Shown one piece after another: positions 5,301-36,700 of a stretch of 64,000 bases of DNA; within the stretch, counting starts at the first letter, position 1; every line of letters starts with the position of its first letter. The position numbers and the translations under genes are program-made. Where the stretch lies: contig OX485809.1 of the NCBI GenBank assembly GCA_950295325.1, forward strand, positions 20,274,001-20,338,000, written 5' to 3'. Under the pieces are notes generated by a model that saw only the letters and a program-made list of their open reading frames with translations, was not told the origin of the DNA and searched no databases. The stretch comes from Polytrichum commune (taxonomy: Eukaryota; Streptophyta; Polytrichopsida; Polytrichales; Polytrichaceae).

Positions 5301-6739
5301 ATAGCCTCTGTATCCTCGAGTGGGACTAGGTAAAACATAAAGTGTCGAGATCTCCGAGCAGACAGCAAATAATAGACATCCATCTTCAATCAAGCAATGG
5401 TCCTGAGACAAAATCAAGAACCTGACCACTTTCACATCCCCTCTCAAGCATTTTCTCATTGCACAAGAATGACAACAGCTTTGATCGAACTCCACAAACA
5501 GCTGTTCTTGAAGTGATAAACAAAGACATGGGTCTCCTCCACTGCTTCGCCAATTTGAGGTACAGAGTATCTTGTGATTGGTCAGATCTTCCGCACGACT
5601 CAAGACACAGACAGGTTCCATGCTTTGAGTCTCACAGATACTGAATTAAGTTTGACTAATACTGATACAGAATACCATGATGAATGAGAAAGTCCAAGAA
5701 ACTTCAGTACTACTTTACAATCAAAACAGAGATGCAAGCATCCCGCCTTTCCAAGGCATGCAACGCCATGGGTACACCATGAGCAAGCTATACCAAACCT
5801 ACAAGAGTTATCAGAATAACCTCCAACCGTTGACCTCCAAGTCTCTCTGCTGAGCCAAGTTCATCATCTTACGTGAATCCTTCTCCAAATACGTCATGCA
5901 GGACCATAACTGAGAGGAGAATGCAAACTAGATGTTTGTAAGTTCGAAAGACACACAATGTATCTCCCTTCACGATGTACCAAACAAAGCAGTAGAGCAG
6001 GTCGTCAACAATCTGTTCCGATGATGGCTGATCCCTCAGTGGGGGAGATTAATGCCTTAAAGAATTTATAATGCATTAAAAGGAAGTTGCATTAGAACAT
6101 GTGCTGATGACACTATAAAGGATGACAATCTTTGTTAAGATATATGTTTCTGTCTGTTCCAGACACTACTACAAGAATAATGTAACAGTCAAATGCTTCC
6201 GAGCAGGTCACTTTCTCCAAGAAGCCCATGGGACATACTCTCTAACCAGACACGTCGTTAAATGACTGATAACTCAGTGGGGGATTAATGCCATAGAAAT
6301 CTGAAAATGCAATTAGGGAAGTTGCCTTAGAACATGTGCTGATGAAACTTAAAGAGGAAGAAAAAGTTTATTTATAATATGCCTTCTCTATTTCCAGCCA
6401 CTACAACGATCATCGTAATGTAACAGTCAAATGCATCATCCGAGCAGGTCACCTTCTCCATAAAGCCTACGGGACATACTCTCCAACCAGACAAATTGTT
6501 GGAGTCTGCAGACATATATAACATTGTCTACAATGACATTCCAAGCTTGTAGCATGCGGATCTAGGGTTCTTGAGTGTCACCTGGGGTTATGGAATGGAC
6601 CAACTTTGTTTGCATACAGCGGCACAGGATCTCCGGCAGCGTACTTATGGTCAGAGCCGGTAGCGTAGACATTCGCACATCCCGTTAAGCAAAGCAAGAA
6701 AGCCACCACAAGCATCTCCCTACCCCACCATGTCGCCAT
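2341..6739 (-). CDS. Transmembrane 9 superfamily (TM9SF/TMN, EMP70) protein, 7 exons, 593 aa
   Basis: Nonaspanin of the Golgi/endosome system. Exons read on the minus strand: 6739-6582, 5224-5181, 4973-4394, 4171-4034, 3699-3543, 3199-2715 and 2560-2341. All junctions are GT-AG and phases join cleanly to 593 codons plus stop, close to the usual length of about 590. The start ATG at 6739 gives a signal peptide ([20 protein letters not shown]), and the mature lumenal domain opens with the family block [20 protein letters not shown]. Nine hydrophobic segments follow: one near the end of exon 3 (after [12 protein letters not shown]) and eight more in exons 4-7. The C-terminus [10 protein letters not shown] carries the K-x-D/E type Golgi-retention signal known for this family. 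Family members act in protein sorting and membrane trafficking; the exact role of this copy is inferred. An in-frame upstream ATG at 6784 would add 15 residues and weaken the signal peptide. Intron 1 is 1.36 kb and holds a tandem duplication. Confidence 0.95.
6020..6505. repeat. Tandem duplication of about 240 bp in intron 1 of the TM9SF gene
   Basis: Two diverged copies lie head to tail: about 6020-6258 and 6259-6505. Shared blocks include CTCAGTGGGGGA then TTAATGCC (6033 and 6272), TTAGAACATGTGCTGATGA, TGTAACAGTCAAATGC and CGAGCAGGTCAC. The array ends about 75 bp from the exon 1 splice donor at 6581. Confidence 0.85.
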
Positions 6740-7900
6740 GTCGCCCCAAAACCCCACCGACTCAAGAACTTCCGATCCCCCCACACATGCAACTCGGCTT
6801 AAAACACCCGGATCAGATTCTTACTACAAACATACCATACAGAATGACCCGCTACCTCACTTTACCCCCACTCCTGCTCCCACCCCTCGACTCTTTCAAG
6901 TTTCTTCCCTACCAAACCCTAGCTCCTCAGTACCGGACTGTATTGCGCAATGCGACATTCCACGGGGAGCTGCGAGAACGGCTGTCACGAAGAAAATGAG
7001 GATGTATGATATCAGGAGGAAATTGGATGTGACAAGCGGTGCCGGAGAGGCTCGAGGGTCTAGCGGAGGCGAGCTTGCAAAGGGAAGTGCGGGGCGCGCG
7101 GAAACTCTCCCCCTCACTTCCACTTCTCCATGGCCATGGCCGTCTCACGCGGAAGAAGACGGTGACGTGGCAGGACCTGATTGGGAGGGGGCCACACTTG
7201 ACTGGAGGTGTAGTCGGTGGACCTTCTATTAGTATTTGGCCCTCTTTATGGTATATTGCAATTTGGGTACAGTTTACACATACAGTTACAACATGCCTCA
7301 TAAAATTAGGCATTCGCAAAAATAAAATTTATTAGCTTAATTTATCGCGTCATGCCCCAGGGTTTTCAAGAAGTGGCTGGAAAGTGCTCGGAATTGGACA
7401 ACTGGAGAGTGTTTTGTATGGCATTGTGTGTGGCGTGTTTATTATGTTGACAGTGAGAAGGTTATGATCAGCGCAGCAGACAACCATCAGGAGCGCGAAC
7501 TACACCAACTTGTCGTCGAGACGCGCCCTGGGCATTTTCGGAATGTTTTTGTGTCTTAATCTATGCGTGCCGCTCTAATTTTTTTATGCATTTCATGTGT
7601 TTATTTATAGAACGCCTAATTTAATGAGCCGTGAGTCACAGTGTCACTTATTATTATATTGTTCCCAAAAACCCCGCCACAAAACGCATTCGTATGTGTG
7701 CATTCTATTGGCCGTCGTAATTGGTAAATTTTCATAATACCTATTAGGGAGGGTAAAACCTAAGAGAAACATTAGAGTTATGCGTGTAGAGTCCCTCAAC
7801 GAAGGATGAAACCCGGTGTTGGTTTGGTATGCATGTAGGTGAATGCATGGTGTCAATCGACATCAACATATATGTGGGTGTCAAGATTATTTTACTAGTA
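6740..7900. other. Promoter side and upstream flank of the TM9SF gene
   Basis: The 5' UTR and promoter of the minus-strand TM9SF gene should lie from 6740 upward; the part to about 7200 is relatively GC-rich. Overlapping open frames here on both strands (for example 6738-7232 and 6927-7319) have no family signature. I could not place a TATA box or start site with confidence. Confidence 0.35.
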
Positions 7901-8115
7901 AAATATTGATATATGATGGGTGTGTCAAGATGAGAGAATCTTTGTAAACCCGAGTTATTGTGTGGGTCCATACCATTCTAAAACATATTGATAAGAGGGT
8001 GATTTTGCTTAGCTACGAAGGTTCTTGGAAGGTTAACAGACCCGAACGGTATTGAAAACAAAACACCATCAAATATTCATTGTGTGTTGCCATCAAAAAC
8101 AATGTGAAGTACATC
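7800..8115 (+). repeat. Dispersed repeat family 1, copy a
   Basis: Non-coding MITE-like sequence. Key blocks are GTGAATGCATGG, then TCAAGATGAGAGAATCTTTG, CCGAGTTATTG, TGGGTC and GAAGGTTCTTGGA. Related copies lie at 32590-32890 (minus), 36060-36410 (minus) and 62080-62890 (plus, interrupted by another element). Confidence 0.75.
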
Positions 8116-8544
8116 ATAGATACCCGAATGGTATACAATAAAGATGATAACAATCCATCACTAGACTAAACCGAGGGCTTGATCCTTCTTTGAGAGAAGT
8201 TTCTACTAAAAGCTTGCTAGTTTGTCATGTGTTGGAGCTCATTTTGAAAGTTGGTTGAAACTTTGGGGATCTCCTTTCATCGTCCCAAAAACTTTGAGAG
8301 AACTTTAGAATGAAAATCAAAGTTTTGCCATGGGATTTGCCATCTTAAACCCATACCATCTTAAGCAAGGCTAGCTTGGCCCACCCATTGTATTATGACA
8401 AAACTAGCAAATTGGTTTCCAACAACCCAACACCACTCTTTGAGCATGGCATTTTAAGCCTTAAGGAAAAGTGCCTTAAGCATATTAAGCCTTCATGCAT
8501 AAGCTCTCAAACTCACATGTTAGCCAACTCTCCAAGAGTTTGAT

Positions 8545-8545
<1 letters not shown>

Positions 8546-8637
<92 letters not shown>
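8546..8637. repeat. CT/GA dinucleotide microsatellite, 92 bp
   Basis: An uninterrupted run of about 46 CT units. The open frame across it on the minus strand is an Arg-Glu repeat made only by the microsatellite and is not a gene. Confidence 0.98.
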
Positions 8638-8639
<2 letters not shown>

Positions 8640-10650
8640 TACAATTACTTCGAGCATATAAATGAATTTGAAAAATAATCAATTTTATGTGGGTCATTTT
8701 AAGATTAATAATAGGAATAAGTATTTCTAAATATCATTGTATGACATTTTGAGGCCACAATGGACCTCTCAGAGTTGAAAGGACCCTAAGTGTCTAAAAT
8801 GCTATATACAAGTATTCATCCACAAGAATTGTATTTGAGCTCCATGCTTCCACTGTTAGCCAACACAACATTAAACATTCTATTTAGTATCATATGATAT
8901 TGATGTCATTGTGGTAACTTTTATAACGACACTTCTTATGAACACAATTACAAGTATTATCATCCCTAACATACTTTTACTTCATTAAAATACCAGTTAT
9001 TAAAACAAACTTTGGTACAATATGTATCCTAACATTTATGTAATGACATGTTATCATGGTTCATTGACCTTTGGATGAATATGTTAGGTTTACATTTGGT
9101 GTTGGTGACACTACACGAGCAGTATACAATTAGTATTGAGCAAGACAAATCGTATTGGTGACACTATATACAATATTTATTGATGTCATTGTAGTCATTG
9201 TCTCTTATTAAATGAACCCTTTATTATACAACTCCCTTAACATTCTTCAACCCCTGAGGCTATGCACACTAAGGGTGAAGATTACTGCACGCATGGTTAA
9301 ATGCACGAGTCAATTATAACATTAATCCAATTTTGAAAGGGGTTGGGGTCACTTTAACAGTTACAAACCTGTAAATATAGTTGAAGACATAGACAATAGC
9401 TACACTAAATAGGATATTTAGTGTTTGATTAGTACTTAATCTTGTTACCACCCTACCATGCTCAACACTAATTTTCAATTCTTTGACAACCAGTGTTAGA
9501 CATGAACGTGTGACTACCTTCCCTACTGCCACCTTCCTTATTATATTAGTTTTAATATCCTTATTAACACTAAATTCAACACATGTAACTTCCACACATT
9601 ACCATAGTTGATGTTTAGTGTTTGCGTTTACATTTAATGCTACCTACTTTCATAGGATTATTGACATTTTGTGTATGCGTTTGTATTTAGTGTAGTTTTA
9701 GGGGTCATAGAAGTTATAGTAAACAAAAACCAATAAAGAACTTGCCAAGCACATGCCGGTGACCCAACATCTACATGAACTGCCATGAATCTTGTCCAAG
9801 GGGAGTTGCCGGAAATGGCAAAAAGCCAGAAAAAATAAGAATAAGAATAAAACAAAATAAAAACTACCACGTAAAGAAAGTGTGCTAATATAGATATGTC
9901 TATATTTAAATATATGTGAATGATTACAAATAATATTATACCAAAAATTAACCAGAAACATTAGTGTGATCTGTCTATTTATTGTTTCCCATTCATTTTC
10001 ATGATTTTTTAGAAATTATAATAATATTTTTTAGTATGAACTACTATTCACATAAGATACAGTTTATACAAATTCATTAATTGTCATTTGTTTAAATGTT
10101 TCTATTTCTTAACCCTAATGTCCTATGCGACCATAATCTAGTCATAATCTAGTTCATGAGTAATTCGGATGGTTTCTTGATTGTTTCAACCACTCCTCTT
10201 GTTCTTGTTCAAGTATGCTATATGGATAATTTTGATGCAACAAAGTCGTATATTTTTTGGATTATTTCAAACATGGGAGTGTTCTCTCAATTGGTTTATA
10301 ATGAAATCGGTCCATAAACCAAAACTTGACATTTATCAACTTTGCGGTTTAGGGGGCAACACATCCTAAACATGTTTTTGTTGATCCCCTATGTGCAAAT
10401 GATTCACAACTGATCTTGAAACTTGCATGACACTCAAACACAACATATCCTAAACATCTACTATTGGAATGTTTAGTTGGGCATGTGTTGGCGGGTGGAA
10501 ATCCATGTGGAATGTGCACAGTTTGTAGCACCACATGCCTCAAACTACAAAGCTTCCCATAAAATCACAAAATAATGGTTTCAATATTTGTGAGTTGTTT
10601 TAAGTGGAGGTTCTTTCAAAAAAAACCAACCCTAATTTAATTTCTAAACT
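8640..10650. other. AT-rich intergenic DNA with one dispersed repeat copy
   Basis: No gene seen. A segment at about 9085-9190 is an inverted relative of 16985-17080. The rest shows only short open frames without recognisable domains. Confidence 0.45.
9085..9190 (+). repeat. Dispersed repeat, inverted partner at 16985-17080
   Basis: This segment contains TTAGGTTTACATTTGGTGTT, TGGTGACAC, TTAGTATTGAGCAAGACA and ACAATATTTA in order. The reverse complement of 16985-17080 has the same blocks in the same order with a few changes. The type of element is unknown. Confidence 0.75.
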
Positions 10651-10656
10651 AAGTGT

Positions 10657-12480: not shown

Positions 12481-12696
12481 AAGCTAACATGCTCACATTC
12501 ACGTTGGTATCTAGCTACGGTCGTTACTTTTTCATTTTTTTTTCATTTTTTTTTCTAAATTGTTGTCCCTCAAGACCATTATTAACATTCACATTATAAT
12601 CTCTTGCATAATAAAACTTCAACATTCAGAAATTGGATTGTGAGTAGTCACATCTAGCTTGCAAACATATATACAATTGGATTTGTCAAAAAAAAA

Positions 12697-12704: not shown

Positions 12705-13562
12705 GAGCTTCGGCTACGATCATTGAAATTGAGGTCACATTTATGGGCAAATTTGAGGGAAATTGGGCTTGGGAAGTTAGGGTTGAAGCATATCTTACAT
12801 CCTTGGCATTTTGTCTTTGCTTGAATCACACTACAATTTATCTAAAATCAATACAATACAATATACTTCTACAACAAGAATAGATTGATTATGTAAATTA
12901 TCTTTTATGAATCCCTCTGTAGATAAATCGAAAATCCAGACCTCCTTTCCCCAGCCTTCATTGTTCCCGTCCACCTATTTTCTTTCTAGAGTTAGGTTTA
13001 AGGAATTCCCAAAGGACCGGAAGATTTCAAGAGATTGATACTTTTATGTATCCTACTTTGTGTCCACTTTAGTGAAGTGTCGGGAATCTGAGCAGGTACG
13101 TGAAGTTGCCGAGGGTTGGGGTTTCAATCTCACCCGAAGTTGCAATTCATAGAAAAAATGCGCGTCTTAAACTCGTGCATACACGGATTTGCAGTGTTCT
13201 TGCAGCCCTAAAGACAGCTCGTAGTTACCCTTGTTTTCGCCAGTTCATTCACCACAGTTTGCGGTCTGCTCCTTACGAGAACTTGGAGTGTATCAAGGTG
13301 TCCAGCATTCCGAACCGAGCTGCCCGCAATCATGGTACAAATTCCATTTATCGTGAAATCTGAGCTTCCTACGGAGATAAATTGTGGCACTTTGTTTTTG
13401 TTTGTTTTTCCTTTTGCTAGTTTCTCTTCTCTCTGGAGCTTCCTGCTGTGTGAATTGGTGCACAAAGGTCGATATTTCGAAAGGAAGCATATCTTCTAAT
13501 GTGTTCAGGAGTACTTTTAAGTGGCAAGTGTGAACCTGAGGTTTGAATTTGCAATTGTACAG

Positions 13563-15967
13563 GAGGATCTAGAAGAGCAAGTGGCAGATATTCCATTCGA
13601 GCTACTGCAACAGGCGCGCAGCAGTGGGAAATTACCACAAATCAACAAATCAAAGGAAGTCCACGACATGAAACGAGCAAATAAGAACAGGTATATCTGA
13701 CTTCCTATGTTTCAAGAGCCTGTAAAACCATTTCAACAAGCCTCACACTGTTGCTGAAGAAATTGTTGCATTCTGACATCTTTTAGGGTTTTCTTTTGAA
13801 TGTTGTGTACTTGCTATATAAGGTAAGCAGGTGTTAAGTGGTCACTTTAAGCTCTGTACCCACTTCTCGGAGGTTGCGAAACATATATTTAGTGAGAGAT
13901 GATGGCCAATTCCAAGTTGTGTCTGTAGCCAATTTCTGGAGCTCGTATTAATACCTTATCTTTTTATTGTCAAAGTACATTCTCGACGACATTAAATGGT
14001 AATATAGGTCCTTCCAAATTATGTTGACTATTGAACCTATAATGGTCAACATGTTTTGAGCACGCAGTCCAATCTCTTGTAAGAGCATTTTTTTGGGGAT
14101 GTCTGTTCTTACATCGACACCTAACCACACACCACTGAAATATTACTCTAGAGATGTCAACATGTCTCTCACTCTGTTTCACTAGTATCAGAGATTTGAC
14201 TGCTTTTATATGCTTGGCGACACTGTCCACTGTGCAGGCCAATGGAAATGAGTAGCAAGAAACCTGTTGGACGCTTTCGTGAAGTTATCCAGGCACCCAA
14301 GAGGGTGGGTGAATGGAATTTTTTCTTGGAGTGATTTGTTGATTTTGTGCAAGAGATTGCTTCTGGAATCCACCATGTCCATTTTATAGATTGCATGGGA
14401 TGTTGGTGTATGTTGTAGTGAGCTTGGTAATTCGTTTATATTGAGAACTTGTGGACTGCCTTTGTGTGCAGGAGATTCGAGATCCACGGTTTGAGTCATT
14501 GTGTGGCACCTTTGATGAAGCCAGGTGAAGTTTTAATGGACTCTTTCAAGTCCTGTGGAGTCTTTCCTTCCGCATGTGTGCTTTTTCAGTTGTAGGCTTG
14601 TAAACTAGAAACTTGACAAGTGGGGAGGAGAATACACTCTGAGGATAAGTTACAAATAGGAGGGAAGTTTTGTGAGTACTTAACATCTTTGGGAGAGAGC
14701 TTAACAAGCTTGCAATGGAATCCTATTGGCTATTGGCAGGTACAAGAAACTATATAGTTTCCTTTACGATGAAGATCTTCCTGCTGAGCGTCAGGTGACC
14801 CAAACACTTCATCTCATAATATTGAAGCAGTGATTCCGATGCAAATGCTGCCTCAATCTTGTCCCCCCATGCTCAATGTTTCAGCTAACTACTCAAGATT
14901 CTGACATGACTTTAGTACAAGTTGTAGGCATATATCTTGCTTTGTCTCCATTACAAAATAGTGGGGCGGTGTCTTTGCATATCAAAGACCTGAAAATACT
15001 TATTGGAAATATATTGGATTGTTTACAGAGACTTCTGAAGGCTGTGGGGAAAGGCAAGGGTGGTGAAGATGTGGAAGAATCTCAGAAGCAGCTTGAATGG
15101 ATTGTGAGTTGCAGATATTAAACTGGTACATTATTTTGTTAGTTTTCAGTTTCTTAGTAGATGGAAGGAGACACCAGTAATGATTTGGTTAACTCTGGTC
15201 AAAAGATTAATATTAATTCCAAGAACAACTTCTTTGAAGTGGAGACGTGGACTGGAAACTTAAATCTGATTGAAGACGATGCTAATTAGTGTGTTTCATC
15301 TCCTGTCTTCTTCGTGTCACTGAATACAACAATTGTTACAGGACAAACAATTACGAGAAGAGGAGCAGCGTCGGAAACGTGAAAAGGCAGTAACAACACA
15401 TGTATCCAAAGAGAAAGAGGCTGTAAAGCAGGGAAAGAAACCCTACTATCCCAAGAAATGTAAGTACTTGTTTATCAGCTTCTGAAGGTATTTCTACTGG
15501 ATATATTTAAGATAAGGAAATTATAAGACAAATGCTATGTTGAGCCATATGGATGTTGAGCCACATGGATTTGGTTGGACATCTTTGGATTGAAGAGTAT
15601 CTAGAGTACATCAAATTTCATCACCTTACTGTTCTTCACTTATTTAATGTGCAGCTGAGAAAAGGAAAGAAGAGTTGGTGGAGAAGTATCAAGAACTGAA
15701 GGTAATGTCACTTGTGAATTGATGCCCACTTCTGTTGTCTGTGAATTCCTCTCTCAATTTGTTGATTATGCATCCAGCTCCAAAGGTGCTGTGATACTTC
15801 TGCCTTTTAGATTTTCTGTTTTCACTTGTACTTTGGTTGAAGCTAGAAGTTTGTGTGTGTTCTCTTTGCAGGCTAGTGGGAAGCTGGAGAAATTTGTGGA
15901 AAAGCGTAGACAAAAGAATGCTGCCAAAGATCACAGATATGTACCATACAGGCGTCCCGAAGCTTAA
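13563..15967 (+). CDS. RRP36: RRP36, ribosomal RNA processing protein 36 homolog (N-terminal exon unresolved)
   Basis: Nucleolar protein of the early pre-rRNA processing machinery (small-subunit processome, cleavage leading to 18S rRNA). Exons: 13563-13690, 14238-14304, 14472-14524, 14740-14794, 15029-15103, 15342-15459, 15655-15701 and 15872-15967. Phases join to 212 residues plus stop. Family blocks in order: EEQVADIPFELLQQAR, KRANKNRPMEMSSKKPVGRF, RDPRFESL, YSFLYDEDLPAERQ, a basic coiled region (DKQLREEEQRRKREKA), GKKPYYPKKSEKRKEELVEK, LEKFVEKRRQKNAAKDHRY and the terminal PYRRPEA. These match the DUF947/RRP36 family over its conserved core. The reading frame is closed by a stop at 13518 with no ATG before exon 13563, so at least one upstream exon with the start codon exists; I could not place it. 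A telo-box lies upstream at 12697. Confidence 0.9.
13865..14135 (-). repeat. Dispersed repeat family 2, copy a, in RRP36 intron
   Basis: Read on the minus strand it has GTGGTTAGGTGTCGATGTAA, GAGATTGGACTGCGTGCTCA, GGTTCAATAGTCAACATAAT and a polyadic CCTATATTACCA block. The same order occurs at 33060, 37295 (minus), 41370 and 52030. It sits inside the intron between the first two resolved RRP36 exons. Confidence 0.75.
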
Positions 15968-18756
15968 CCCTTCTAGCTTCAATGAGCAGTGTGCAATCTG
16001 CTTACAGTTTTGCAAAAAAGGCTACCTTGAATTCAGTAAACAGCTGCTGAGAGACAAAAGTTTCTTGATTTGGCAAACTACACATGTTCACGGAGTTTAA
16101 CATGTCTGTACCAAAACAATGACTTTCTGAAGAGTCTTGACAAGTAGGCATGATAAGTCATTCATCACCTACTTTGGTTACAACATTCTTTTGTATCTCA
16201 TATGTCATTGGGAAACCCATGACAACCCAACAGCATCAAAAATAGCATATGATGATATCAAGGAGGCTTCTCTCGCTGAAGAGTGGAACTCTTTCCATGT
16301 CTCATGGAAGAAACTAGATTACCTCCACCTCAAGGATTTTCTCAAATACGAATGTGAATTGCACTTGACCTATTTCGTGGGTCTCAATGGAGTTGTTTTG
16401 CAATGTGTTTTATAATCTTTCCCCCCCAAAAAATTAAATGATCTTTGTATAATAAGTACATGTTGACTTTGAGAATGTTCAGCATGTGAAAATCATGCCC
16501 CCCTAACGGTTTTGGGTGGCAACACAATATTCACTTCCAAAAGTTGTATTTATTTCAATATTGAAAAAAAAGAAAATAATTTTTTTCAATACACTTGGTT
16601 TTAATTTTAATTTTAAAATTATCTACATGGAAATATTTTTCGTTCATACAGGTTCTGCATGTACTCCAAATACCTCAACTTCTTGGTTTAAGGTGCTCAT
16701 ACCTTACATATGTGACCTGAGTTGTCAACATGTTTTCAATCAATGTCACAAAAAATATAAAAATAAAACCGAGCTAACAGTGAGTTTATAAATTGCATTG
16801 GAATCAATTGTACTGTTGGTGGACCTGCTAATCAAAATTTATATCTTATTTATGATTATAATCATAATAAAATAATCACAATCTCAATAAAAATGCATGT
16901 TAAAGAATTAAAGACAAACATGAAGAGGTCTATTACATGTGGCTCCTTAAGTTGCCACCTCACCCCTTACTTCACTTCACTAAATATTGTATTTAGTGTT
17001 GCCAATTCTATGTGTCTTGCTCAATACTAACCCTTGCAGTGTCACCAACACTAAATGTAAACCTAATATTATTTGTCATACCTTGTAAAACAATTTGGAA
17101 ATTATAGATTTACAATGGTGGAACAACTGTCACTTAGTAAGTGATTTTTCATTGAAATTCTAATCAACCGTGACAATAATTCATTGCCTAAGTGTTAGGA
17201 TGTAGAATATACTAAAATTGGATGAACTAAAAGTAAATTAGGATGATATTATTTGTAGACTTATTCATAATAAACGCCATATGAAACTAAATACAATATT
17301 TAATTTAATTTTTACTCTCATTTCTTGCACTAAATGACCAAAGCTTTACAAGACATAATCTTGGATTTTCCTATGGTTTATTTATAACCATCCCCATGTG
17401 CCATTTGTCCTTGCCAAAGTATTTGGATTCATATTAAATTCTAAACGATACAAGAACATGTAGCTTTACTATGTGAGAAGTTCTTAGGTTGGGCACATGG
17501 CATGGGCTACCATAGCCTAGGTGTCGCTTGGAGGATGTGGGCTGTGACATTAAAAAGTAAAAAAATGTGAATGCAATAATAAAATTATAATTAAATGCGT
17601 ATTAAAAAAATCAGGTTAAACACATGCAAGGAGTTTAATGTGTTGGGGTAGAATTTAGGTTAAGTTTTACTATAGTATGTAGCTTGCATGGTGACGTGCC
17701 TTGGCTCCAACATGAATTTAGCTACACAATATCACTGCCTAATTAGTTACCAAGCCTCCCAAGTGGCCACTTGGAGCTAAAGCAACCCACTTTTTAGCCA
17801 TATGCCCATGCCTTTTGTCTTATTTACTGTCTTTATCCTTTGGTTTATATTTTACTTCATAGTCTACCCAAATACACTACACTACATTCTTTTGCATTCA
17901 CCCTACATTCATTTTCCACTCCCTATACCCACTCAAGTGGTGTTCCCACATTGTCTCTGTCCCAAGTTTGGGACCGAGCCAATAAATCTCTACAAAATCG
18001 TGAACAATTAATTGCATGTGCCAATGCTAGCCAACCATATGCACTCAACTAAAGAATGTTGTGACAAAGTTCATTTGAAAGCGGTGTTGATTCCTCCCCA
18101 TGGTCACATGATAGAATGAACCAATGACCAATAAGAGAATGTTGTTTTCTCGGATTCTAGTGCCCCCTTTAAAACCCTCCTTCTCACATTGGGAACCCCC
18201 CCAGGCGACAATTCTAAGTGACACCGAGGCCCTAAGGTGTGCCACCTGGTTGCAAAAGGCTGGTCTGCCTACGTGGCGGTCCGAGCTGGAAACTTATCTG
18301 GTACATCCAATGAGAAACGATCCTAGGTGGCAAAGCTTCATCGCGGCTCTGCCTCTCGCGCTCTGAGTCTCATCACCGTTGCTCCCCCAGGCTCGGTTTC
18401 CTGCGAGCTCTTCGATCGATCCTCTCGGTTTCCGCTTTTCCACGCGCGCTCTATTGCCTCCATCAACCTAAGATAATCACTTAAGAGAGTGGAGTGGATT
18501 TTCCGGATGCAAAAAAATGCGGTGCTGCGGATTGCCCGGCTGCACTTGGGGAGTGTATATTGTTCGTCCCATTTGATGCGTTGCCATTGCTCCTCCTTCG
18601 CAATGGCCTGCGGTGGTGATAGCCTTGCCGCTATTGTATAACGATGGAGGGAGATATTAGCGCGTAGTATTTTTTTTTTATTCGGCTTTGAGAGCTGGAG
18701 AAGCATTTGAACTAATATCGGGACCCTGTGTTGGAGAGCTTTGCCATTTAGCGAAG
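15968..18756. other. Intergenic region between RRP36 and RFC1
   Basis: The first few hundred bases should be RRP36 3' UTR. A repeat copy lies at 16985-17080. From about 18130 the DNA becomes GC-richer, and this is probably the RFC1 promoter and 5' UTR. No further gene was recognised; the open frames at 17802-18052 and 18338-18706 carry no known domain. Confidence 0.5.
16985..17080 (-). repeat. Dispersed repeat, inverted partner of 9085-9190
   Basis: On the minus strand it shares the ordered blocks TTAGGTTTACATTTAGTGTT, GGTGACAC and TTAGTATTGAGCAAGACACA with 9085-9190. Confidence 0.75.
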
Positions 18757-21700
18757 ATGTCAGGACAGGCTGATATACGAAAATGGTTCATGAAGCCGCC
18801 CACGAAAGCCTCAGCAGCTGCAGCCACTCCAACAAAAGCTGTGAGTCCTCAACTCTTTTTTCGAGTTTTTGCTGTCCATGGAGCAATCAGGATTAGGGTG
18901 GGTTAAAGGCTTTAATAACCTTTTTGGCTCGATCGTGGGACCTGAATTTATCCAAAGGAGAAAGAAGTTAAAATTATGACTCTTCTCCTTCTGCAGATGC
19001 CCTTGTCAGTGTCACAGATGTGCAATGTGCAATATAGTACTTCATCTCGTTGTTGACGAGTTTTACACATAAATCTGCTTTGAGATATAAACTTTCTTTT
19101 GTGAATAATCTTACATGTGCAATGTAGAACCTTATAAGCACATGATCCACTTTAGAAGTCGAGACCTACCGACGTAGAGGTTTTACAATGTGCAATATAA
19201 TATTTTATCTCTTTGTTGACGAGGTCTACACATAAATTTGCTTCGAAACAAAAATTTCCTTTTTGTGAATAACCTTTAGGTCACTTACATGTGCAATGTG
19301 AAACTTTATAAGCACATAGCCTGCTGAGGATGTTGAGGCCTTCCGAAATAGGGGTTTTAGAAGATCTACTACATGACTGGGGTATAGCGATTTTTTTTGC
19401 AGATGCTCTTGTCAGTGTTACAGAGGTGCAATGTGCAATATTGTACTTCATATCTTCGTTGACGAGCTCTACACAGAAATTTGCTTGGAAATGTAAACTG
19501 CCTTTTGTGTACAATTTTCAGGTCACTTACATGTGCAATGTAAACCTTATAAGCACATAGCCCTCTGTAGAAGTCAAGGCCTTCCGAAATAGGGGTTTTA
19601 GGAAAGCCAGTGCATGGCGGGGTATAGCGAATTTTTCTGCATATGCTCTTGTCAGTGTTACAGTGTAACAGAGGTGCGATGTGCAATATAGTACTTCATC
19701 TCGTCATTGACGAGTTCTACACAAACAATTACTTCGACAGATAAATTGCCTTCTGTGAACAATTTTCAGGTCACTTACATGTAAAACCTTATAAGCACAT
19801 CGGCCACTCTAGAAGTCAAGGCCTTCCAAAATAGGGTTTTTAGGAAAAGTGGTGCATTGCTGGGGTATAGCGAAGTTTTCTGCAGATGCTCTTGTCACTG
19901 TCACAGATGCAATGTGCAGTATAGTACTTCATCTATTTGTTGCCAAGTTCTACACATCAATTTGTTTCGGATCATAAACTGCCTCTTGTGAAATATGTTC
20001 AAGTCACTTACATGTGCAATGTGAAAACCACATAGCCCACCTTACAAGTTGAGGCATACGGAAAATTGAGGTTTTAGGAAATCTAGTGCATGGCTGGGGT
20101 TTAGTGAATTCTTCTGCAGATGCTCTTGTCACTTTCACAGAGGTGCAACGTGCAATATAGCACTTCATTGCGTTGTTGACAAGTTCTAGACATGGAAACA
20201 TAAATTGCCTTGTGTGAACAACCTTCAGGTCACTTACATGTGCAATGCAAAACCTTATAAGCACATAGCCCAAGTCGAGACCTACCGAAATAGAGGTTTT
20301 AGGAACTCTATTGCATGAATGGGGTATGGTGAATTTGGTTGAGTGCAATCCATTACTGGTTCAATATCAATTTGGTCCTTCTGTGGCAAATGTTTTGAAG
20401 CAGTTTAAATCTCTTATCTTCACAACAAGTGGCTTTACCATAGCCATATCCTTCCCTCATGTTCTGCCCAAATTTTTTGTTGCAGTGGGTACTTGTGGTT
20501 TTTACTGAACTCCTCACCTGTCTCAAAGGACAGGTCAAATCAATCATCAATTGATGGATGCAAGTGCATTATTTTTAACAGTGCCATGGCTAGAATTCAT
20601 CAGCACACACTTAACAGTATGTCATTTTAATAAGAGATTGATCAATTTCAGACAACCTTTCAGGAGGAAAGCAAAGGAGATGAGAAGACTCCGTCATACA
20701 AAACTACCAGCAAGTTCTTTGCAAGTACTCCTCCTCCTGGCACAAGTACAAACACTCAAAAGGATGAATTTAAAACCCCAGTGGGTAAATCAAGTCCTGC
20801 TGCAGGAAAGAGGCTGAAGGAAGAGAAGGAATCTGATGATGAAGAGAAGGAGCGCCCCTCCACGAAGAAACCCCGGAGTGTAGAGCAGAAAGGGGTTAAG
20901 GATGAAATTGAAAGTGATAGTGTAGCACCATCTTCTGTCACTCCGAAGGGGGCAGGAAGGGGAAGGGGAAGAGGAAGAGGAAGGGGAGGGTCAAATGCTA
21001 AGGCCACTGAGGACGAGGATGAAGACATAGATGATCCTTCTGTAAAGGCATCTGGAAGTGGAGGAGGACGTGGCAGAGGGAGGGGAAGAGGAAGAGGGAA
21101 AAGTGATTCGTCTGCTGTGAGTACCTCAGATGTGGATGATCCTGAGCCTTCTCCAAAGAAGCCAGCGGCAGGTCGTGGTCGGGGACGAGGCCGGGGTGAT
21201 GGCTCTGCTGATTCACAAGCAGATGTGAAACCGGCAGCAGCACCAGCTGGGAGAGGGCGTGGTGGTGGAGGAGGATGGGGAGGCGGCGGTGGTTTTGGTG
21301 CAAGAGAAGCACCTCCTCATAAAGGTGAAAAGGTATGTGGATTTGAAAGATGTGCAGTCCTAGCTCTTGTAGTAGTGTTATGAATGTGCAAATTCAACTC
21401 AGATCTGTTTGACAGAACAACTCCTGTCTTAGATTTGCACATTTATAGACCTGAACAGACCTGTCAAGAATGAGTTGGTCTGTGAATTGGTCTTGTCTGT
21501 GAAAGAAGTCTCTATTATGATTGTTTCGTTGTGGTGATGCACCACAGTATCAACATGCTCCTTCAATGGTTTAGATTATCTATTAGCTGCTTTTCAGTCA
21601 CTGGATGTCCTCTGTTTTACCATTTTAAAGACATATGGTTCAGAAATTGCCAACAAATCTCTGTATCTTATAAAATATTCATGTCTGTGGGATGTGCTGA

Positions 21701-24700: not shown

Positions 24701-27700
24701 ATGTAGTCTTATTTGATGATATGTTGGGAGTGCCTTTGGGGTAGCTTGATGAATGTTTGCTGTTTGGCCACAAATTTCTTTCTTATGACTGAGTTGCTAT
24801 ATCTAGCAGATGATCGATTTTTAATCTTTTAATTACAAGATGAGTAGGGAGTGGTATGCATGATGCAATGTTGCATATTTATAGAGAGCTATTTTGGGTA
24901 AATATCTTGGTATTATTATTGTCTTGGTGTCGAGAAGAATTTAAATCCATTTTATCTTGGTCATTGTCCTTGTTTTTTTTAACTTGTGAAGGGAGGGACT
25001 TGTCAGATGGTGTTGAATGTTGGTTTAAGTTTTCTACCATTTTTAATGTTACTTGTTCTTGTGCAAAATGTAGGAGGCCAGTGTTGATAATGGATGAGGT
25101 GGACGGCATGTCTGGTGGTGATCGAGGTGGTGTAGCAGACCTGATTGCAAGCATCAAAGCCAGTCGCATTCCTATCATTTGTATATGCAATGACAAATAC
25201 AGTCAAAAACTGAAGAGTCTTATAAATTATTGCCTGCCATTGGCTTATAGAAAGCCAACAAAACAACAGGTATGCCCTGTACAATTAGTGCAACAATGTG
25301 GTAATTTGGACTAAATGGTTGGAGATGGTTTAGGTTGTATATCCATTCATGTTGGAAATATATAAATATATTGAGTCTAAGATTGATAATGTTATCATGG
25401 TCACTGCAGATGGCTAAGAGGTTGCAGCAAATTGCGAAGTCTGAAGGACTGCAGGTCGATGATGTAAGTTTTCAATATTGCCTACAAATTCTCGCATCAC
25501 ACATTGTTTGCAAGAAACTTCAGTTTTATCTTCTCTGCTTGTGTTGCTCATGGCATAACAAGTCTGCAGCATCTTGTGCTGTCAAGTTAAAGCTTCCATA
25601 AATGTATATCCAGACAAATGATTAGAAAAGGAATACTTTATGAAGTCTGTATAGCTTGTATGTTGCATGGGACTTGCCACAAGAAGTCTAATGAGCTATA
25701 TTGCTGTAGGAAGTCCTATAGGCAGGACTAATGTAAAGTTTTATACAGAACTTGGAGTTTTGCTAGTTCTGACCAGGACGCTTATCCTCTCTGGGCATTC
25801 CTGCATGATGTGTTTTCTTTGCCAGACGGTCATCGTTTATGCAGCTTTGCCAGTTACCAGAAGTCTCCATCGTTTATGCAAGTATTCAATTCCTGACTTC
25901 ATGGACAGAAAAATGTGGACTACTTGACTACAGGAAAACTTAATTTTAGACATCTATTCTGGTTGCAGATAGCATTGGAGGAGCTGTCTGAGCGTGTCAA
26001 TGGGGATATGCGGATGGCTCTGAATCAGCTTCAGTACATGAGTTTGCGCTCACAAGTGTTGAATTATGCAGATATACGCACCCGTCTCATGGCGAGTGCC
26101 AAGGATGAAGATGTCACTCCATTCTCTGCTGTTGACAAGTCAGTACTGACTGTCAGCCGCTTCTTTTCCTGCTTATACAGGAACATGTGAAATTAGTGTT
26201 GACATCTGAAATCAGTAGAATTATCCTTTAACTCAATGGGACTTTTTGTGGGAGTTTGTCCCCTATGATATTCCATTGGTTGTGTTGCATACAAAATGAA
26301 TAATTTCTTTCCAGTTGTGGTGCATGCTGGAGGTAGTTTTTGAATTTGAATGAAGAGAAACCTATTTTGGCTTATTGAGGGCCTACCTCAATTTAGCACC
26401 TCTTGGCATGCCAAAATGAGTTGACCCTCAATGAACCAATATAGAATTTTCTTCGTTCGAACCTCCACAGTACCTCCAAGCATGCACTGGAGACTTACCA
26501 AACAATCAACTCTTGAGCGAAAGTCATGTTGAGGTAGAGGATGAACTCTAGTGTCCCCCCCATTTAGAAATTGTGATGTGGTGTTGTCTACTGCAGGTGT
26601 AATGTCCACATACACTTTGTTTGAGAAGAATAATTTCACATTTTTATGGTGGTTAGTTGGTCAAGAATGTGCCTGCAATGCCCTACATAAGTGGAGCTCT
26701 GCAAGCTAACTGAAGTAAATTAGTATGGTGTTTGAGGAGACATCGAGGTGCATTGACTAAGTGAGGAATCTTCCTTTGCACTAAGCTTGACATGGAGCTG
26801 TGCTTTATTTTTTAATTGCAGGTTATTAGGATTTAATGGAGGCCGTTTGCGCATGGATGAACGCATGGATGCTGCTATGTCAGACATGGATTTAGTGCCC
26901 CTTCTTATTGAGGTCATCATTTTACATCCATGTTTCTCTCTATCATTTTGTATGCATCGGACTCTAACTGATCAAGTAGGCATATTTGGTGTTACCAGAA
27001 CCATCTACTGAACAACAATAATATTAGATCCACTTCTTGAGATGTCTATATGGGCGTTCATTCTTCATTCTTAATGTTGTCACCATGAGATTTGCATATT
27101 TTGTAACTACTCTATTCCTTGGAAAAAATACATTTTATGTAGGTCGCCATCTTATTTCATCTTGGTATCTGTATGCATACAGGAGAATTACTTAAACTAC
27201 TGCCCAAGTGGAGCGGGTCGTGATGAGGATGGAACAGCACGGATGGATTTGATAGCTCGGACAGCCTTGTCTATAGCAGAGGGTGATATTGTGAATGTTC
27301 AAATTCGAAGATATCGACAATGGCAGCATGCACAGATGGGGGCATTCATGTCTTCTATTATTCCGTATGTGTCCATTGGACTTTCTAATATTGACTAAAT
27401 TGGCCATCTTATTTAGCTAGAACGTAATTAAAACGAGACTGGTCAGAAATGAAATTCATGTCATTGTGGTGGGTGCATACTGTGTCCTGGAGACTAATAT
27501 GAATGTAGCCCAGTTGCTACAACATGGTTAGCTTGAGCCTATGCATTTCCGTGCACAACTTGTATGTTCACTAGTATCCATTGCCCTTATTGTTGAGTTG
27601 GTGCATTAAAGGTTGAGAAACAGGTTTCTGCACAATGATGGCTAAATGATTATCTTTTCTCATTGAGTTTATGGGCTGGATGTTTGAGGGGTGCAGAGCT

Positions 27701-30700
27701 GCTTTGATACATGGTCGAAGGGAAGTATTGGTTCAGGTACTATTATGAAACTTTTCTATTAGTATTTGTGCCTTTAACTTTGGGGTATATCCTATCAGTT
27801 GCACGCATAGAGCCTGACAGACTTCCCACTTGCAGGGTGAGAGGAATTTCAATAGGTTTGGGGGCTGGCTAGGGAAAAACTCAGCTTATGGGAAGAGATT
27901 GCGTCTCTTAGAAGACGTTCACGTCCACCTACTGGCTTCCCGAGTTTGTGAGCCCACAAGGTAATTTTAAGGAATGCATATATCCATGTAAGGTTACTGT
28001 CCAGTTATTCACAAGATATTATCACACCCTCGCTGAACCTTGGGCACACATTGGGGTCACAATGTCATTGTTTGAAGGTGATATGGGTTGTTGAAATCAC
28101 CATCCTAATATTATCACCTTGCAAGTGAGTTATGTAATTATCACAAATTCCTTGTAAACTTCTGTATATATGCACAAGCTTTTGCATTAGGCGGGAGATG
28201 TTCCAATCATACTGAGAGTATGAGGGTATTGGTCTGCTTCATTTGTTGGTTGTGTAATCAGAGAGGCTGTTCGCTTGGACTACTTACCCCTTCTTGCAAG
28301 GCAACTGACACAGCCTCTTCACACCTTACCAAAGGTGCTGTCAGTGTTTCATTCCCCTCTTGTTATCACCTTTTTATCTGCTACATTTACTTTGTGCATT
28401 GCAGTTAGACGACAATCAGGTCTTCCTTGCACTCATCCATATTGAACAGAGTTGACAACTTATAACTTTAATTGCAATGTTCATGTGACAAGTAGCTGAC
28501 AAGAGTACTGTCACACTTAATTGCTTTCGGATCTGCCGTTGTGGTCTATGGATGTGGCAGGAAGAGGCCGTGCAGCTAGTAGTAGATATAATGGACGAAT
28601 ATTCTTTAAACCAGGAGGATGTTGATACTATTCATGAAATCTCAAAATTCAAGGTATGCTAAGATACAACTCTTAAGTTTATTAGAGTTATCCTTTAAAT
28701 CAACGGGACTTTTTGTCAAAGAATTGGTCCCTTACAATTTCCATTGGTGGTTTTGCAAACAATACCAAGAATTTCTTTTCACATGTGATGTATGCTTGAG
28801 ATGGTGTTTGAATTCGAATGAAGAGCAACCTATTTTGGCTCATTGAGGGCCAAACTCATTCAAGCACCTCTTGGCATGCCCAAATGAGTTTGAACCGGTT
28901 TAGAATGTTCTTCATTAAAAATTCTACACTGCCTCCAAACATGCACTGGAAACTTACCATACATGGAAGGTGTGTTATGCAGAACAACCAATACCCTAGC
29001 AATAGTCGTGTTGAGTTAGAGGATAACTCTATTATGTACTCAATTTGATCCCTGTCATTCATAAAATAAGAATTATGATGAAAACATGAGAAACAACGAA
29101 ACTGAAGCACATATTTGGTCTAGGAAGCACAGAATGAATCTTGAATTGAGATGTTGATGGTCAGTCTCCTCAAATTACTGAATGGATCTGCAGGGTGGTG
29201 AAGGCTTGCTGGAAGGTGTACCAGCTGCTGTGAAGACAGCTCTCACAAAAGCATTCAAGCAGCGTGAGGGCCGTGTCCGATCATCCGACCTTCTCCCAGC
29301 TCTCTCTCTGCCAGGTTTCAAAAAGGTCACGAAAAAGCCAGCACGGATGAATTTTATGGCAGCTGAGGATGAAGAAGGCCTAGAATCTCTTCAAGATCCA
29401 GAGGCTGGTAAGTTTATTGACCTTCTGCTTTGTACTCTTTGCTTGAAGTATGTCTTAACAGCTTGTTGTCTTCACAGCTTCTTGTTAAATCTTGAGAAAG
29501 TTATACAGTATTTCTTATGAATGTTCATGTCTGATTTTATAGAAGGAATGATGTCATTGTCGTTGTCTAGTGTCCTGCATTACCTGTATAAGAATGATGG
29601 TATTTGTGCACAGATGTTCTTGCCTAATTTAGAGTCCTAACCCCTAAGCATCCAAGAGGTCCCAATCTGGGCCTCTCCATGCACAATAATATATATTAAT
29701 GTGTATTTGAGCTACATACTTGCTTTCTTAAGCTAATTGTGTCAAAAGTTATGCTATTTAAATTTAACTCATTCATGAAGTGCACATTTCAAATTTGTTG
29801 AATAACCTCGTGTCATTGAAGACATGGGTTCTAATACATGCTTAGTATTTTGATCATCAAAGTCACATATGAGTATATTGCTATTTTCTCATTGAGCAAG
29901 GGTGTCAAAAAATCCTTGAATGTCAAAAAACATGACTTTAAGACTTGGTGAATCTTGTAAGAATTGTGTATATAGGTCGTACATTGAGCCTCTTGGTCCT
30001 TTAAGGGTTAAGATCGTCAGTAAAGTATATGATATATACTGTTACTAACATCAAGCCTCATCCTTGTTCAGGAAAAGATTTCCACCTCTGAGTGTTCTAA
30101 TTTTTACTGTGCTTCTACAGAGGATGAAGAGGAAAGCCCCGAGGAAGGGGAAGAGGAGGAGGATGAAGAGAATAAATTAGGTTAGTCATCTCGCAATCAC
30201 GTCTTATTTATCTTGTCAAATTTGTGTGGCCTGTGCTGGTCACCATGCATTGTGCATCAAAGTCTCTTTTGAGCAATCAAATATTATATGAAAGAACTAA
30301 TGAAAGATTTATCTAACAGAAGTCAAATGATGATGAGGTAAATTAGTACTAATTTTATAGATCAAGTTACAGTTTGGCTGTAATGGATGCTTTGTATGAC
30401 AGATGGAAAAATAGACTATGACCTTTGCAACAGAGTTGTTGCTACACAATTGTAAATGGGTCATCAATCTCTATTATTCTAGTTGGATTGTTCATCGGCA
30501 ATGTATCTGGGGTTGAGTATAAGGTTACACACATCATAAATTTCTGTTTTGGGCTTGGAAGTGGAATATGGGTTTCTTATACTCAAGCCACAGGGATCAA
30601 AGTCAAACTTCTCTCAAGGAATCAAGTTATGTGTACAAATTATGAGAATCTATGATAGAGAGATAGTAGCACTACACTAATTGAATGCTCTGGTGAGCTG

Positions 30701-32890: not shown

Positions 32891-33059
32891 GCATAACTGT
32901 AGGTTAGAAACGGAGTTGGGCGCTTTTACCATAATCACCAAAATCACTGAGATGAAAGTGCATGTTCACCCATCATTCCATGGTATATGTTCATGTCATT
33001 TATGTGAATCATGAATGTCATATATCTTACGGTAGATTCCCTTATTCACTTGCTTTTCA

Positions 33060-33365
33060 GGTCACCCTACATCTGAATGGTTTGTGGTTTGGTGTGACTC
33101 CAAGAACGGATACCAAATGACACGTGTTCAGAAGAGATTGCATTGCATGTTCAAATATGACAACCATTCAAAACTCAATAATCAACATGATGGGGGGGGG
33201 GGGGGGGGAGGGTATATGACCATTTAACAAGCACGATTATTTTCACTCCAATCATGAATAAGATAATCACATAAGCTCCAAAAACTAAGAGGAAAGTGGC
33301 TATGGGCTTGATTTTGATTTGCTAACCATCTCATACTAATCGCGTGTTTCATATCTTAAGAGAAT
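33060..33365 (+). repeat. Dispersed repeat family 2, copy b, with a 17-G run
   Basis: It has the ordered family blocks AAGAACGGATACCAAATGA, AGAAGAGATTG, CAATAATCAACATGATG, a G17 run at 33192-33208, TATATGACCATTTAACAAGC and ATCATGAATAAGATAATCAC. Confidence 0.75.
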
Positions 33366-33778
33366 TTGTAACCATTTAAGAGCCATCTACCTGTGGGTGT
33401 TATTTGGTTCATTTTTCATGTCCTCCAACTTTTATCAATTAGATTTACACAACAAAACTTTGTGTTGGATTAGTATATCTACAATGAAACATGTGCAAAA
33501 AGCGGATTGAAAATCAGACCTGCCTTAAGTTAGTCACGGTTGTTGGAACTTGGAAGTGCATGTATGCTGATTTCTTAACTGGATAGAGAGTTCCTCCCAA
33601 TTGTGTTCAGTGTTTGAGTGCCGAGTAGTTATGAAGATTTGAAGACGCAGTCCCTTACTAAATCTTGGTCTGAGTGTTGGGTCTCGGGTCCCACTGCCAG
33701 AACGACGACAGTTGCGCAACAACAAATCTTGGGCCAAGGGGAGCCAGCACACAAGTAAGTGTGTCTTTGGATTCAGAA

Positions 33779-36700
33779 ATGGCCGTGGCGCTCGCAAGTT
33801 CTCCTGCCGCGAGTGTGAGGGCGTTGCAGCGATGTGTTGTGGGACATGCCGGTGGCCGCTCGCGGTTCCTGCTGCTCAGGGCCTCGCCGGCGCAGTCGCA
33901 GCCTCTGAAATGCGGGGGAGCGTGTAGTAGGAAGCTGGGTGGTTCGATTGTGGGAAGTAGGTTGCAGCGTTTCTCCATCGTCGCGTCCTCAATGGGCTCC
34001 CCCACGCCTTCCCAGGTGGGTTTTGGGTTGCTGCCATGATTTTGGGGGTCAGGGACGATTCAATTCCTTCCATTTTGTTTGGAGAGGCAGACTTCGGGTT
34101 TATGCATTGGAAATGCTTTCCGAATTGGAGCCTCTGCTTGAATTACTTCAAACAGGGGTTATGTTGTGGATTGTCTTTGCCGCTGAACCTGATGAATTGG
34201 GCATGGTGTGATTTGAATTTTGGTGCCAATTAGAAACAATCGAATGCAATTCATTTGTTGCCATTGTCTTTGGAGACTCACAAATTGGAGTTATTGATTG
34301 GAATGGTTTCTGGATGACAGCCTCCGTTGAAATTTACTCAAACAGGGTTATGTTGTTAGAGCCTTTCCCAGTGAACCTGATGAATTGGGCATGGTGGTCA
34401 GTGTATGAATGAGATTTGGTGCCAATTGGAGATGTAGGAATCACTAGCAGTCAATAGATGATGCAATTTATCAATGCATAGGTTTTGCTTGCTGCCAGGA
34501 TCCTTGGGTTGAGGGGCAATCCAACACAAATCAATTCTTTCCCTTTTGTTTAGATAGGAAGATATTGGGGTTGTTGACTTGAGCGGTTTCTGGACGATAG
34601 CCTCTGTTTGAATTGGTTCTATCCAAACAGGGTTATGTTGTGAGAGTCTTTGCCACTGAACCTGATAAATCGGGCATGGTGGTCAGTGCATGAATTGGAT
34701 TTTGGTGCCAATTAGAGATGTAGGAATAAACCTTTTATCAACCCATAGGTTTTGGCTTTCTGCCGGGATCTTTGGGTTGGGGGCCAATCCAAGACAATTC
34801 AATTCTTGCCATTTTGTTTGGAGAGGCAGAGATTGGGGTTATTGATTTTAGAGTCTTTGAGACTGATGCTGATGAATTGGGTCTGGTGGTCAATGCATGA
34901 ATTGGATGTTGTCAAGCATGGAATCATGGTCCTCTATTTGGGTCGAGAAAGTTGAGCACATCGTTCTTGTATCAATGAAATTTTTATTCAATGTTCAATA
35001 TTTATTCCTGTAGTGGCATACAGAGTCGGAAGATCAAAACAATCTTGGTGAGATAGTGTGAAGTATTACTTTCAACAATGAAAATCTTGATGTGAGAAGG
35101 ATCATTGTCTGTCTTTGGGAACGGTTGTTTTGTGAGATTAAGATATTTTGCTTGCAAGACTTCTATCCTCTCCTTTCTCAATAATCTCAATGGTGTCATT
35201 GAAGAACTTCAGTCACGATGAGTCCATCCACATTTGCAAAACACTTCAAATTGTTTTTCAGGCCCTGCATGTTGATTCTCCTGCAGTGCATAGAGAGGTG
35301 CTTGGTATCAGGGGGTTAAAACTGTGTTGTGCTGTTTGCAGACAATGCCAAATGAAAAAGTAGAGGAGGATTCAAAGTGGTGGGAGCAGATTCAAACCCA
35401 TCAAGTAAGTCTTCACGTTATGGAATTTTCAATGCTAGCGAATTGAGAGAAAATTAGGGTCCCTCTCTCGGACCGTGCCAAAAGCCTAGCTACAGCTTTC
35501 CATTGTTGACTGTAAATGATGCGGAGCTCACTCATGGAGTTTATGGTAAGTCAAAATTAAAAAATTAAAATAAATAACATATCAATTGAAATGATTTTCC
35601 AATTCTGTGGAAAATGTATTGCAGAAATCGGCTGCACGGTTATCAAAAGTGGAGGAGGCTCGTACACTCTTGGCAGCTAGCTCAACTGCCACCCTCTCTA
35701 CCATTTCTCAGGTTTGTTCCAAGGATGATAATTTAATTCAAAAGCAGTTTTTTTACGTTTCTCTAGTTGATTGAGGATCAAATGCATTTATCCTAAGTTG
35801 TAAATGGTTAAGTTACAGAAGTTAATAAAGAGTTTTTTTTTTAGATTTTTTTTTAGAAGTGGTGATAATCTTGATTGATGGCTTCTCTGCTTGTTCATGT
35901 AGAATAGAGCATGTGGTACAGAATTTGTTCTTATAATTAATTTTTTTTGAAGTTGCTCAACCTTCTGCTCAGAAGAGCTGATGAAACCAGACACTGACCA
36001 CTTTTACAGACAAAGTTGATTTCTTCAAATGTTGGACTGGAATCACATTTTTCTTATGCCACCTGGATATGTATAATGAGGAAATTACATTTTTGATTCC
36101 ACTACGGTATGAATTTTTCAGGATACTTTTGTTTGTGATACCATTTGGGTCTATGTACCATCCAAGAACCTTCATACCTAGGTAAAAGTACGCTAGATCA
36201 ATATGATATTAGGATGGTACTTGACCCAAATAATAACTCGGATATACAAAGATCCTCTCATCTTGTGATGATACCCACCAAGTATCAATATTGACTTGTA
36301 CTACAATTCTGATGCTGGTTGAGTAGGTTGTTTGATACCAAATTTGGTATTGTAATTCGAGTCCATGCATTCACATATATACTAGTCCAACATGGGTTTC
36401 TTCTGAATCAATCACAATGGGGACCATGCCGGATTTGTGCAGAAATACGATGGGTTTCCACTTGGGTCCATGGTTTTGCATGCGACAGATGACACTGGAC
36501 GTCCAATCTTAGCAATCAGTTCTCTTTCTCCCCATACAAAGGTGATGTGTCTCCCAAGCTTGCATAAATTTAATCGTTGCTCGGTAAGGATAGAACTTAT
36601 GTTCCTTTATGTTTGGAGCAGGAATGAAACAGCAAAATGTCTTGTGAATTATGTCATTGGTGATATACGGAAATAAAGAGACTGGTCTTTAGATTTTCGA

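Follow-up and report, generated by a model that had tools for sequence, protein, structure and literature searches.

Three genes of the window carry tandem arrays in their first coding intron

The window, a stretch of 64,000 nt of the Polytrichum commune genome, contains four genes considered here: TM9SF (named after Pfam EMP70), RFC1 (PDB match 6vvo), a HugZ-like gene (PDB match to AT3G03890, without a match in Pfam) and RRP36, whose name derives from a weak Pfam match below the cut-off. Paralogues were located for the TM9SF and UQ_con genes. A coding-potential score, trained on genes from both the window and the sample, had too little power to serve for annotation. Direct repeats were found in the first coding intron of three of these genes, as follows.

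5225..6581, minus strand: TM9SF first coding intron, 1357 bp; GT-AG, exons joined in phase (...FHNP to SETYKYF), EMP70 exons downstream
6024..6500, minus strand: TM9SF array, two copies, spacing 235-241 (~238 bp), 78% identity
18841..20651, plus strand: RFC1 first coding intron, 1811 bp; GT-AG junctions
18989..20336, plus strand: RFC1 array, six copies, one of them truncated; spacings 163, 243, 248, 233 and 236
34016..35261, plus strand: HugZ-like first coding intron, 1246 bp; GT-AG junctions
34019..34911, plus strand: HugZ-like array, four copies, unequal spacings of 191, 280 and 268; 73-83% alike

For all three genes, the GT-AG junctions and the in-phase joining of the exons place the array within the first coding intron. 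The TM9SF array starts about 81-88 bp inside the intron, and the HugZ-like array 3 bp past the 5' splice site. E values of the best blastn pairs were 5e-42 (TM9SF), 0.0 (RFC1) and 7e-66 (HugZ-like), and the longer blastn pairs were 71-80% alike. TRF, at the setting used, detected only the TM9SF array among the three. As a sequence-only reading of the window had proposed, the arrays show no resemblance to one another, and neither blastn nor the scan described below revealed such an array in the later introns of these genes. Its count of three genes out of four holds for TM9SF, RFC1 and the HugZ-like gene; the fourth, RRP36, has no first intron that could be delimited, and no array was detected by the scan in its vicinity. 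A pair of sequences elsewhere in the RFC1 gene (26216-26504 and 28683-28963) has relatives in the stretches L013 and L016; it is therefore a dispersed repeat, and was rejected as an array.

Arrays appear to gather near gene starts in 225 kb

Self-blastn in 2-kb windows, with a lower and an upper limit on spacing, was applied uniformly to 225 kb of the same genome, composed of the 64,000-nt window and a further 161 kb. It yielded 17 arrays, and none in a block-shuffled control of the same 225 kb, so that adjacent head-to-tail copies occur beyond chance, as in tandem-repeat (minisatellite or satellite) arrays. Seven of the 17 were located in first coding introns, of six genes, the intron of a CAAX protease being counted as two arrays. 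Beside the three genes of the window, these are SnRK1-beta, the CAAX protease and a CENH3-like histone, whose arrays are mutually unrelated in sequence. Old, gene-specific duplications thereby make up much of the first intron in several genes that have nothing in common. Arrays are thus present in six of the nine first coding introns that were delimited. The other three, those of CNGC, exostosin and TIR-NBS-LRR, were without an array in the scan; the last is only ~100 bp long. Two of the 17 lie 5' of coding sequence, and none, at the spacing limits of the scan over the 225 kb, in a later intron.

Considering gene bodies only, seven of nine arrays fell in first introns, which represent 25% of the territory (p 0.0012, with territory lengths for first introns and the rest partly estimated by eye). 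First introns held 7 arrays in 11.0 kb, versus 2 in 33.6 kb for the later gene bodies of ten genes, exons included, one of these being coding and the other at a 3' end. Outside the window alone the bias was not significant (p 0.07), and the sample is small and partly chosen: L016-L018 were picked beside a locus already showing arrays. With this qualification, arrays were not equally frequent in later introns and intergenic DNA of the 225 kb, the pattern that had been named as speaking against the sequence-only reading. Within the introns, arrays start 3-148 bp past the 5' splice site, and their placement is shifted towards the 5' end relative to a uniform-placement null (p 0.0055). Taken singly, each array is ordinary, but their concentration near gene starts does not look random; it could indicate sites at which DNA becomes duplicated, or sites at which duplicated DNA is retained.

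The duplication process is not confined to first introns. Duplications of similar size were found at the 3' end of exostosin (295 bp), in LRR coding sequence (213 bp) and in the retrotransposon-like L006 (229 bp). Two more pairs lie beyond the spacing limits of the scan. The first, a 78-bp pair in L007 (1237-1392), is below the lower limit; it is flanked by the NB-ARC and the LRR frames, and a later intron is its probable location. The second, at the edge of L015, is 97.5% alike with a spacing of 435, above the upper limit, and is outside any recognised gene.

Units are unequal in length and copies are old

All units had been described as about 234-250 bp long. The spacing in TM9SF and four of the spacings in RFC1 (243, 248, 233 and 236) agree with this figure, but the first RFC1 spacing (163) and all those of the HugZ-like array (191, 280 and 268) do not. 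Across all genes with arrays, spacing ranged from about 160 to 330 bp, and a uniform class of ~240 bp was not found. The earlier proposal of a common process near gene starts therefore loses the shared unit length; it gains the three further genes outside the window and the 5'-ward placement.

Copies in first-intron arrays are 67-86% alike overall, a range in which they do not appear to be kept alike by exchange. Ongoing unequal exchange, one of the processes suggested earlier, is unsupported, because no nearly identical neighbours were found and the RFC1 copies are star-like, that is nearly equidistant, at 77-86% identity. No young array was seen in the first introns, where an ongoing process would give some.

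Possible origin of the arrays

We regard the chances as evenly balanced that the arrays are old, decayed local tandem duplications of single-copy intron DNA, which arose or survived preferentially in promoter-proximal transcribed DNA. The starting event would be a break with staggered ends, or a pair of closely spaced nicks, one on each strand, in such DNA. Fill-in and end-joining would then create a duplication of roughly 160-330 bp, and in some genes slippage or unequal exchange among the new copies may have brought the total to 4-6. From then on the copies, presumably devoid of function, would diverge by drift as unique non-coding sequence. Gene starts would favour both origin and survival of the duplications, because the DNA is open there, with few transposons and little coding constraint. 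The clustering of conserved sites is mild for RFC1 (p 0.009), and strong but patchy for TM9SF; pure drift would not predict this, which counts against an explanation by old duplication plus drift.

An extension of this proposal to the whole genome is tentative, and we lean against it: the promoter-proximal first intron would be a hot zone in which tandem duplications of 160-330 bp arise or are kept, many first introns would consist largely of decayed gene-specific arrays, and later introns would be largely free of them.

It is rather unlikely, in our estimate, that no special process operates at gene starts, and that such duplications arise everywhere in this genome but can be recognised for a longer time in first introns, given the length of these introns, their freedom from coding constraint and their low load of transposons. 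The duplications in coding, 3'-end and retrotransposon-like DNA are what one would expect under this hypothesis, as are the L007 pair, if it lies in a later intron as is probable, the old age of the first-intron arrays (67-86% alike) and the p value of 0.07 outside the window. Two observations speak against it: arrays are scarce in later gene bodies (2 in 33.6 kb, versus 7 in the 11.0 kb that first introns occupy), and they lie towards the 5' end of introns (p 0.0055).

Selection may also have retained the arrays, if repeated first-intron segments raise expression by intron-mediated enhancement or enhancer dosage, so that copy number or intron length matters. The arrays are located in intron 1 close to the 5' splice site, where intron-mediated enhancement acts, and the mild clustering that RFC1 shows for conserved sites would fit as well, as would the patches in TM9SF. 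However, the arrays have no sequence in common, clustering in windows is absent for HugZ-like (p 0.18, with p 0.016 for the longest invariant run), CNGC and exostosin have no array in the first coding intron, and decayed two-copy arrays are poor candidates for dosage. Selection is an improbable explanation.

Multiplication in tandem of intronic RNA genes or cryptic exons is still far less probable: inspection by eye revealed a pyrimidine tract and a CAG in the RFC1 units, and one TM9SF block that is open in frame with a 3-base indel, but no Rfam family matched the window at gathering scores, and RNAalifold on the six RFC1 units found compensatory changes in 0 of 29 pairs with a positive covariation term, so that a structured RNA origin was rejected. 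A mobile-element family inserting into first introns is the least credible origin, and is largely ruled out, despite the dispersed repeats common in the window: the TM9SF and HugZ-like arrays were each found at a single place by a genome search that passes over highly frequent words, the eight queries taken from first introns or from 5' of coding sequence, RFC1 included, had no other copy within the 225 kb at E 1e-4 (except for one 57-base match of L003 in L017), and the arrays are unrelated to each other.

Relation to known duplications and to intron length

The preferred reading, local duplication followed by decay, has a counterpart in PMC8355091, according to which insertions found naturally in humans and plants hint at duplication by an error-prone repair process, the breaks having arisen from nicks close together on opposite strands; for plants it cites Vaughn and Bennetzen 2014 and Schiml 2016. 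There, as here, unique sequence would be duplicated locally without a mobile element, the event being deduced for natural insertions. The present copies differ in their old age (67-86% alike), in their number, which often exceeds two, and in their concentration in first introns.

A plant survey, PMC3887541, reports that in land plants the density of tandem repeats peaks near gene starts, in the 5' UTR and the 200 nt upstream, and that repeats become more frequent towards the ends of introns. Its motif table consists mostly of short motifs, whereas units here are ~160-330 bp long and two of the three window arrays are too diverged for the TRF setting used; the phrase 'first intron' does not occur in its main text. 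Literature searches that combined first introns with tandem repeats or duplications showed no description of this pattern among the matches listed, which says nothing about print at large. Minisatellite and satellite arrays likewise have head-to-tail copies; unlike them, the present arrays have few copies, long unequal units, low identity and no indication that copies are being homogenised at present.

In many eukaryotes, first introns exceed the other introns in length. The hot-zone proposal, if true, would trace first-intron length to breakage and repair of DNA linked to transcription. Should gene-proximal tandem duplication contribute to this length, counts of decayed arrays by intron rank would directly test transcription-linked duplication against regulatory selection in any well-assembled genome. 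If, on the other hand, the bias vanishes with more data, the lesson would be that a standard repeat-finder setting overlooks old large-unit duplications, and that survivorship can mimic targeting. The greater length of first introns in many eukaryotes is also stated at the start of the abstract of PMC4085337.

Base composition of the arrays

A methylation-type mutation signature was sought in alignment columns where a single copy deviates, and was seen neither for RFC1 (36 transitions versus 31 transversions) nor for HugZ-like (20 versus 25). GC skew on the gene strand was positive in seven of eight arrays, the exception being CENH3, a hint at R-loops that is suggestive at most.

Direct-repeat arrays in first introns of the window

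The window is part of a 42-Mb contig; the genome measures 408 Mb and has seven large contigs. Its genes, for example the one matching AT3G03890, indicate a plant. Self-comparison of the window revealed three direct-repeat arrays:

TM9SF array: 6024–6500, minus-strand gene; 2 copies, spacing 235–241
RFC1 array: 18989–20336; 6 copies, one truncated; spacings 163, 243, 248, 233, 236
HugZ-like array: 34019–34911, gene matching AT3G03890; 4 copies, spacings 191, 280, 268

Splice junctions, read from the sequence, placed each array inside the first coding intron of its gene. The three first-intron repeats described in a sequence-only reading are therefore real. The unit length of 234–250 bp which that reading had them share did not hold for the first RFC1 spacing (163) or for HugZ-like (191, 280 and 268). 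TRF at the setting used detected one of the three, the TM9SF array.

Distribution of arrays in a genome sample

Direct repeats were scanned for by self-blastn in 211 windows of 2 kb (E ≤1e-5, spacing 100–400, aligned length ≥60). From each of the seven large contigs the sample took the 10 kb at position 5,000,001, and further stretches came from six of 100 pre-drawn random places. Four more stretches were picked deliberately. L016 was meant to supply the start of a gene present in L009, with L017 and L018 as its neighbours; these three, picked after arrays had been noticed in L009, are not part of a blind sample. L019 was picked to reach the start of the CNGC gene in L010. Together with the window, all these stretches come to 225 kb.

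The scan yielded 17 arrays, versus none in a block-shuffled control. By our own classification, seven of the 17 were in first coding introns of six genes (the three of the window and those for SnRK1-beta, a CAAX protease and a CENH3-like protein), and none was in a later intron at these spacings within the 225 kb. Two were located 5' of coding sequence and may lie in 5'-UTR introns, one was within LRR coding sequence (L007), one at the exostosin 3' end (L003), four in L006, and the remaining two were minisatellites, one built on a 62-bp and the other on a 121-bp unit. Arrays outside the window in or near gene starts were the following:

SnRK1-beta: L016 3150–3926, first coding intron (13102–14001 of the joined stretch, from junction sequences; exon 1 MGNTNV...)
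CAAX protease: L009 103–496 and 693–1035, spacings 195 and 207 bp; first coding intron 16089–17660 of the joined stretch, from junction sequences
CENH3-like: L009 5726–6679, main spacing 316 bp; gene at L009 5404–8723, three introns, intron 1 at 21587–23146 of the joined stretch, from junction sequences
Exostosin, 5': L003 1710–2585, ~460 bp before the start codon
PPR open frame, 5': L012 7588–7966, ~100 bp before the frame

In SnRK1-beta, two frames farther downstream carry the glycogen-binding domain (Pfam AMPK1_CBM), and the CAAX protease has an Rce1-like Pfam match in a later exon; no match was reported between its two arrays. The spliced CENH3-like exons encode a complete H3-type histone (Pfam Histone), whose best PDB match, centromeric cnp1, is only slightly ahead of ordinary H3. 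The scan found no array in its introns 2 and 3.

Three first introns, delimited from reading frames only, were also free of arrays: the first coding introns of CNGC (~0.8 kb; cNMP_binding domain downstream, first exon without Pfam match) and exostosin (L003 3376–5043; Pfam Exostosin_GT47) in the scan, and the first intron of a TIR-NBS-LRR gene (~100 bp; Pfam TIR). RRP36, for which no first exon could be located, does not enter the first-intron count.

Some repeats fell outside the spacing limits of the scan. A 78-bp pair at L007 1237–1392 is probably in a later intron, since it lies between the NB-ARC and LRR frames. L008 contains 64- and 68-bp repeats. The pair at L015 1–759, 97.5% alike with a spacing of 435 and cut by the stretch edge, is a young duplication.

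The exostosin coding 3' end is partly copied twice downstream of the stop (L003 5960–6708). In L006, a 10-kb stretch, 229-bp tandem units occupy two separate parts (1–504 and 4531–5427). Judged only from frames outside the piece 9044–9358, L006 reads like retrotransposon sequence, and the frame around the units like pol.

Position bias

Seven of nine gene-body arrays lay in first coding introns, which total 11.0 kb, whereas later gene body totals 33.6 kb (p 0.0012). In this test the CAAX intron is counted twice, and the two 5' arrays do not belong to the territory compared. Territory lengths were entered by hand, and the later gene bodies, from ten genes, include exons. Outside the window alone the proportion was four of six (p 0.07). 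Within the six introns, arrays start 88, 148, 3, 75, 14 and 139 bp past the 5' splice site, a 5'-ward placement with a combined p of 0.0055 versus uniform placement. All these statistics are post hoc and come from six genes. The proposed intron-1 preference is supported, but by few genes.

Nature and age of the arrays

Sequence comparison found no match between arrays of different genes. Those of TM9SF and HugZ-like each hit a single place in the genome search, and the other first-intron and 5' arrays had no further copy within the 225 kb, except for one 57-base L003 match in L017. Printed scan alignments of first-intron and 5' arrays were 67–82% alike, and unit alignments of RFC1 and HugZ-like 73–86%. 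The RFC1 copies are about equidistant from each other, a pattern that fits an old burst better than ongoing exchange.

No Rfam family was found in the window, and RFC1 units showed compensatory change at none of 29 predicted pairs. Conserved columns were mildly clustered in RFC1 (windowed test, p 0.009) and not clustered in HugZ-like (windowed test, p 0.18; longest invariant run, p 0.016). Clustering was strong between both copies of TM9SF (p below 0.001), and constraint or patchy conversion may therefore have acted there. A function of the arrays is putative and unproven.

Origin of the arrays

Most likely, an array would begin as a local duplication through break or nick repair; slippage or unequal exchange between copies may follow, and then decay of the copies. 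According to PMC8355091, natural insertions in humans and plants gave hints that such duplications start from nicks lying close together on opposite strands. The first-intron bias could come either from more events or from better survival. PMC3887541 reports that tandem repeats of land plants reach their highest density in 5' UTRs and in the DNA immediately upstream, and increase toward intron ends; a 5' bias as such is therefore already known for tandem repeats. Among the literature matches listed, no description of decayed arrays with ~160–330-bp units in first introns was found.

Other repeats

The 121-bp minisatellite (ten copies, 91–92% alike) is more homogeneous than the intron arrays. 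It adjoins a dispersed element; the two are recorded together at window 44099–45313, 43128–43627, 45195–45702 and 62181–62692, and L011, L014 and L016 contain related pieces. Another dispersed repeat has two copies inside the RFC1 gene (window 26216–26504 and 28683–28963) and relatives in L013 and L016. A perfect (CT)46 microsatellite is located at window 8546–8637.
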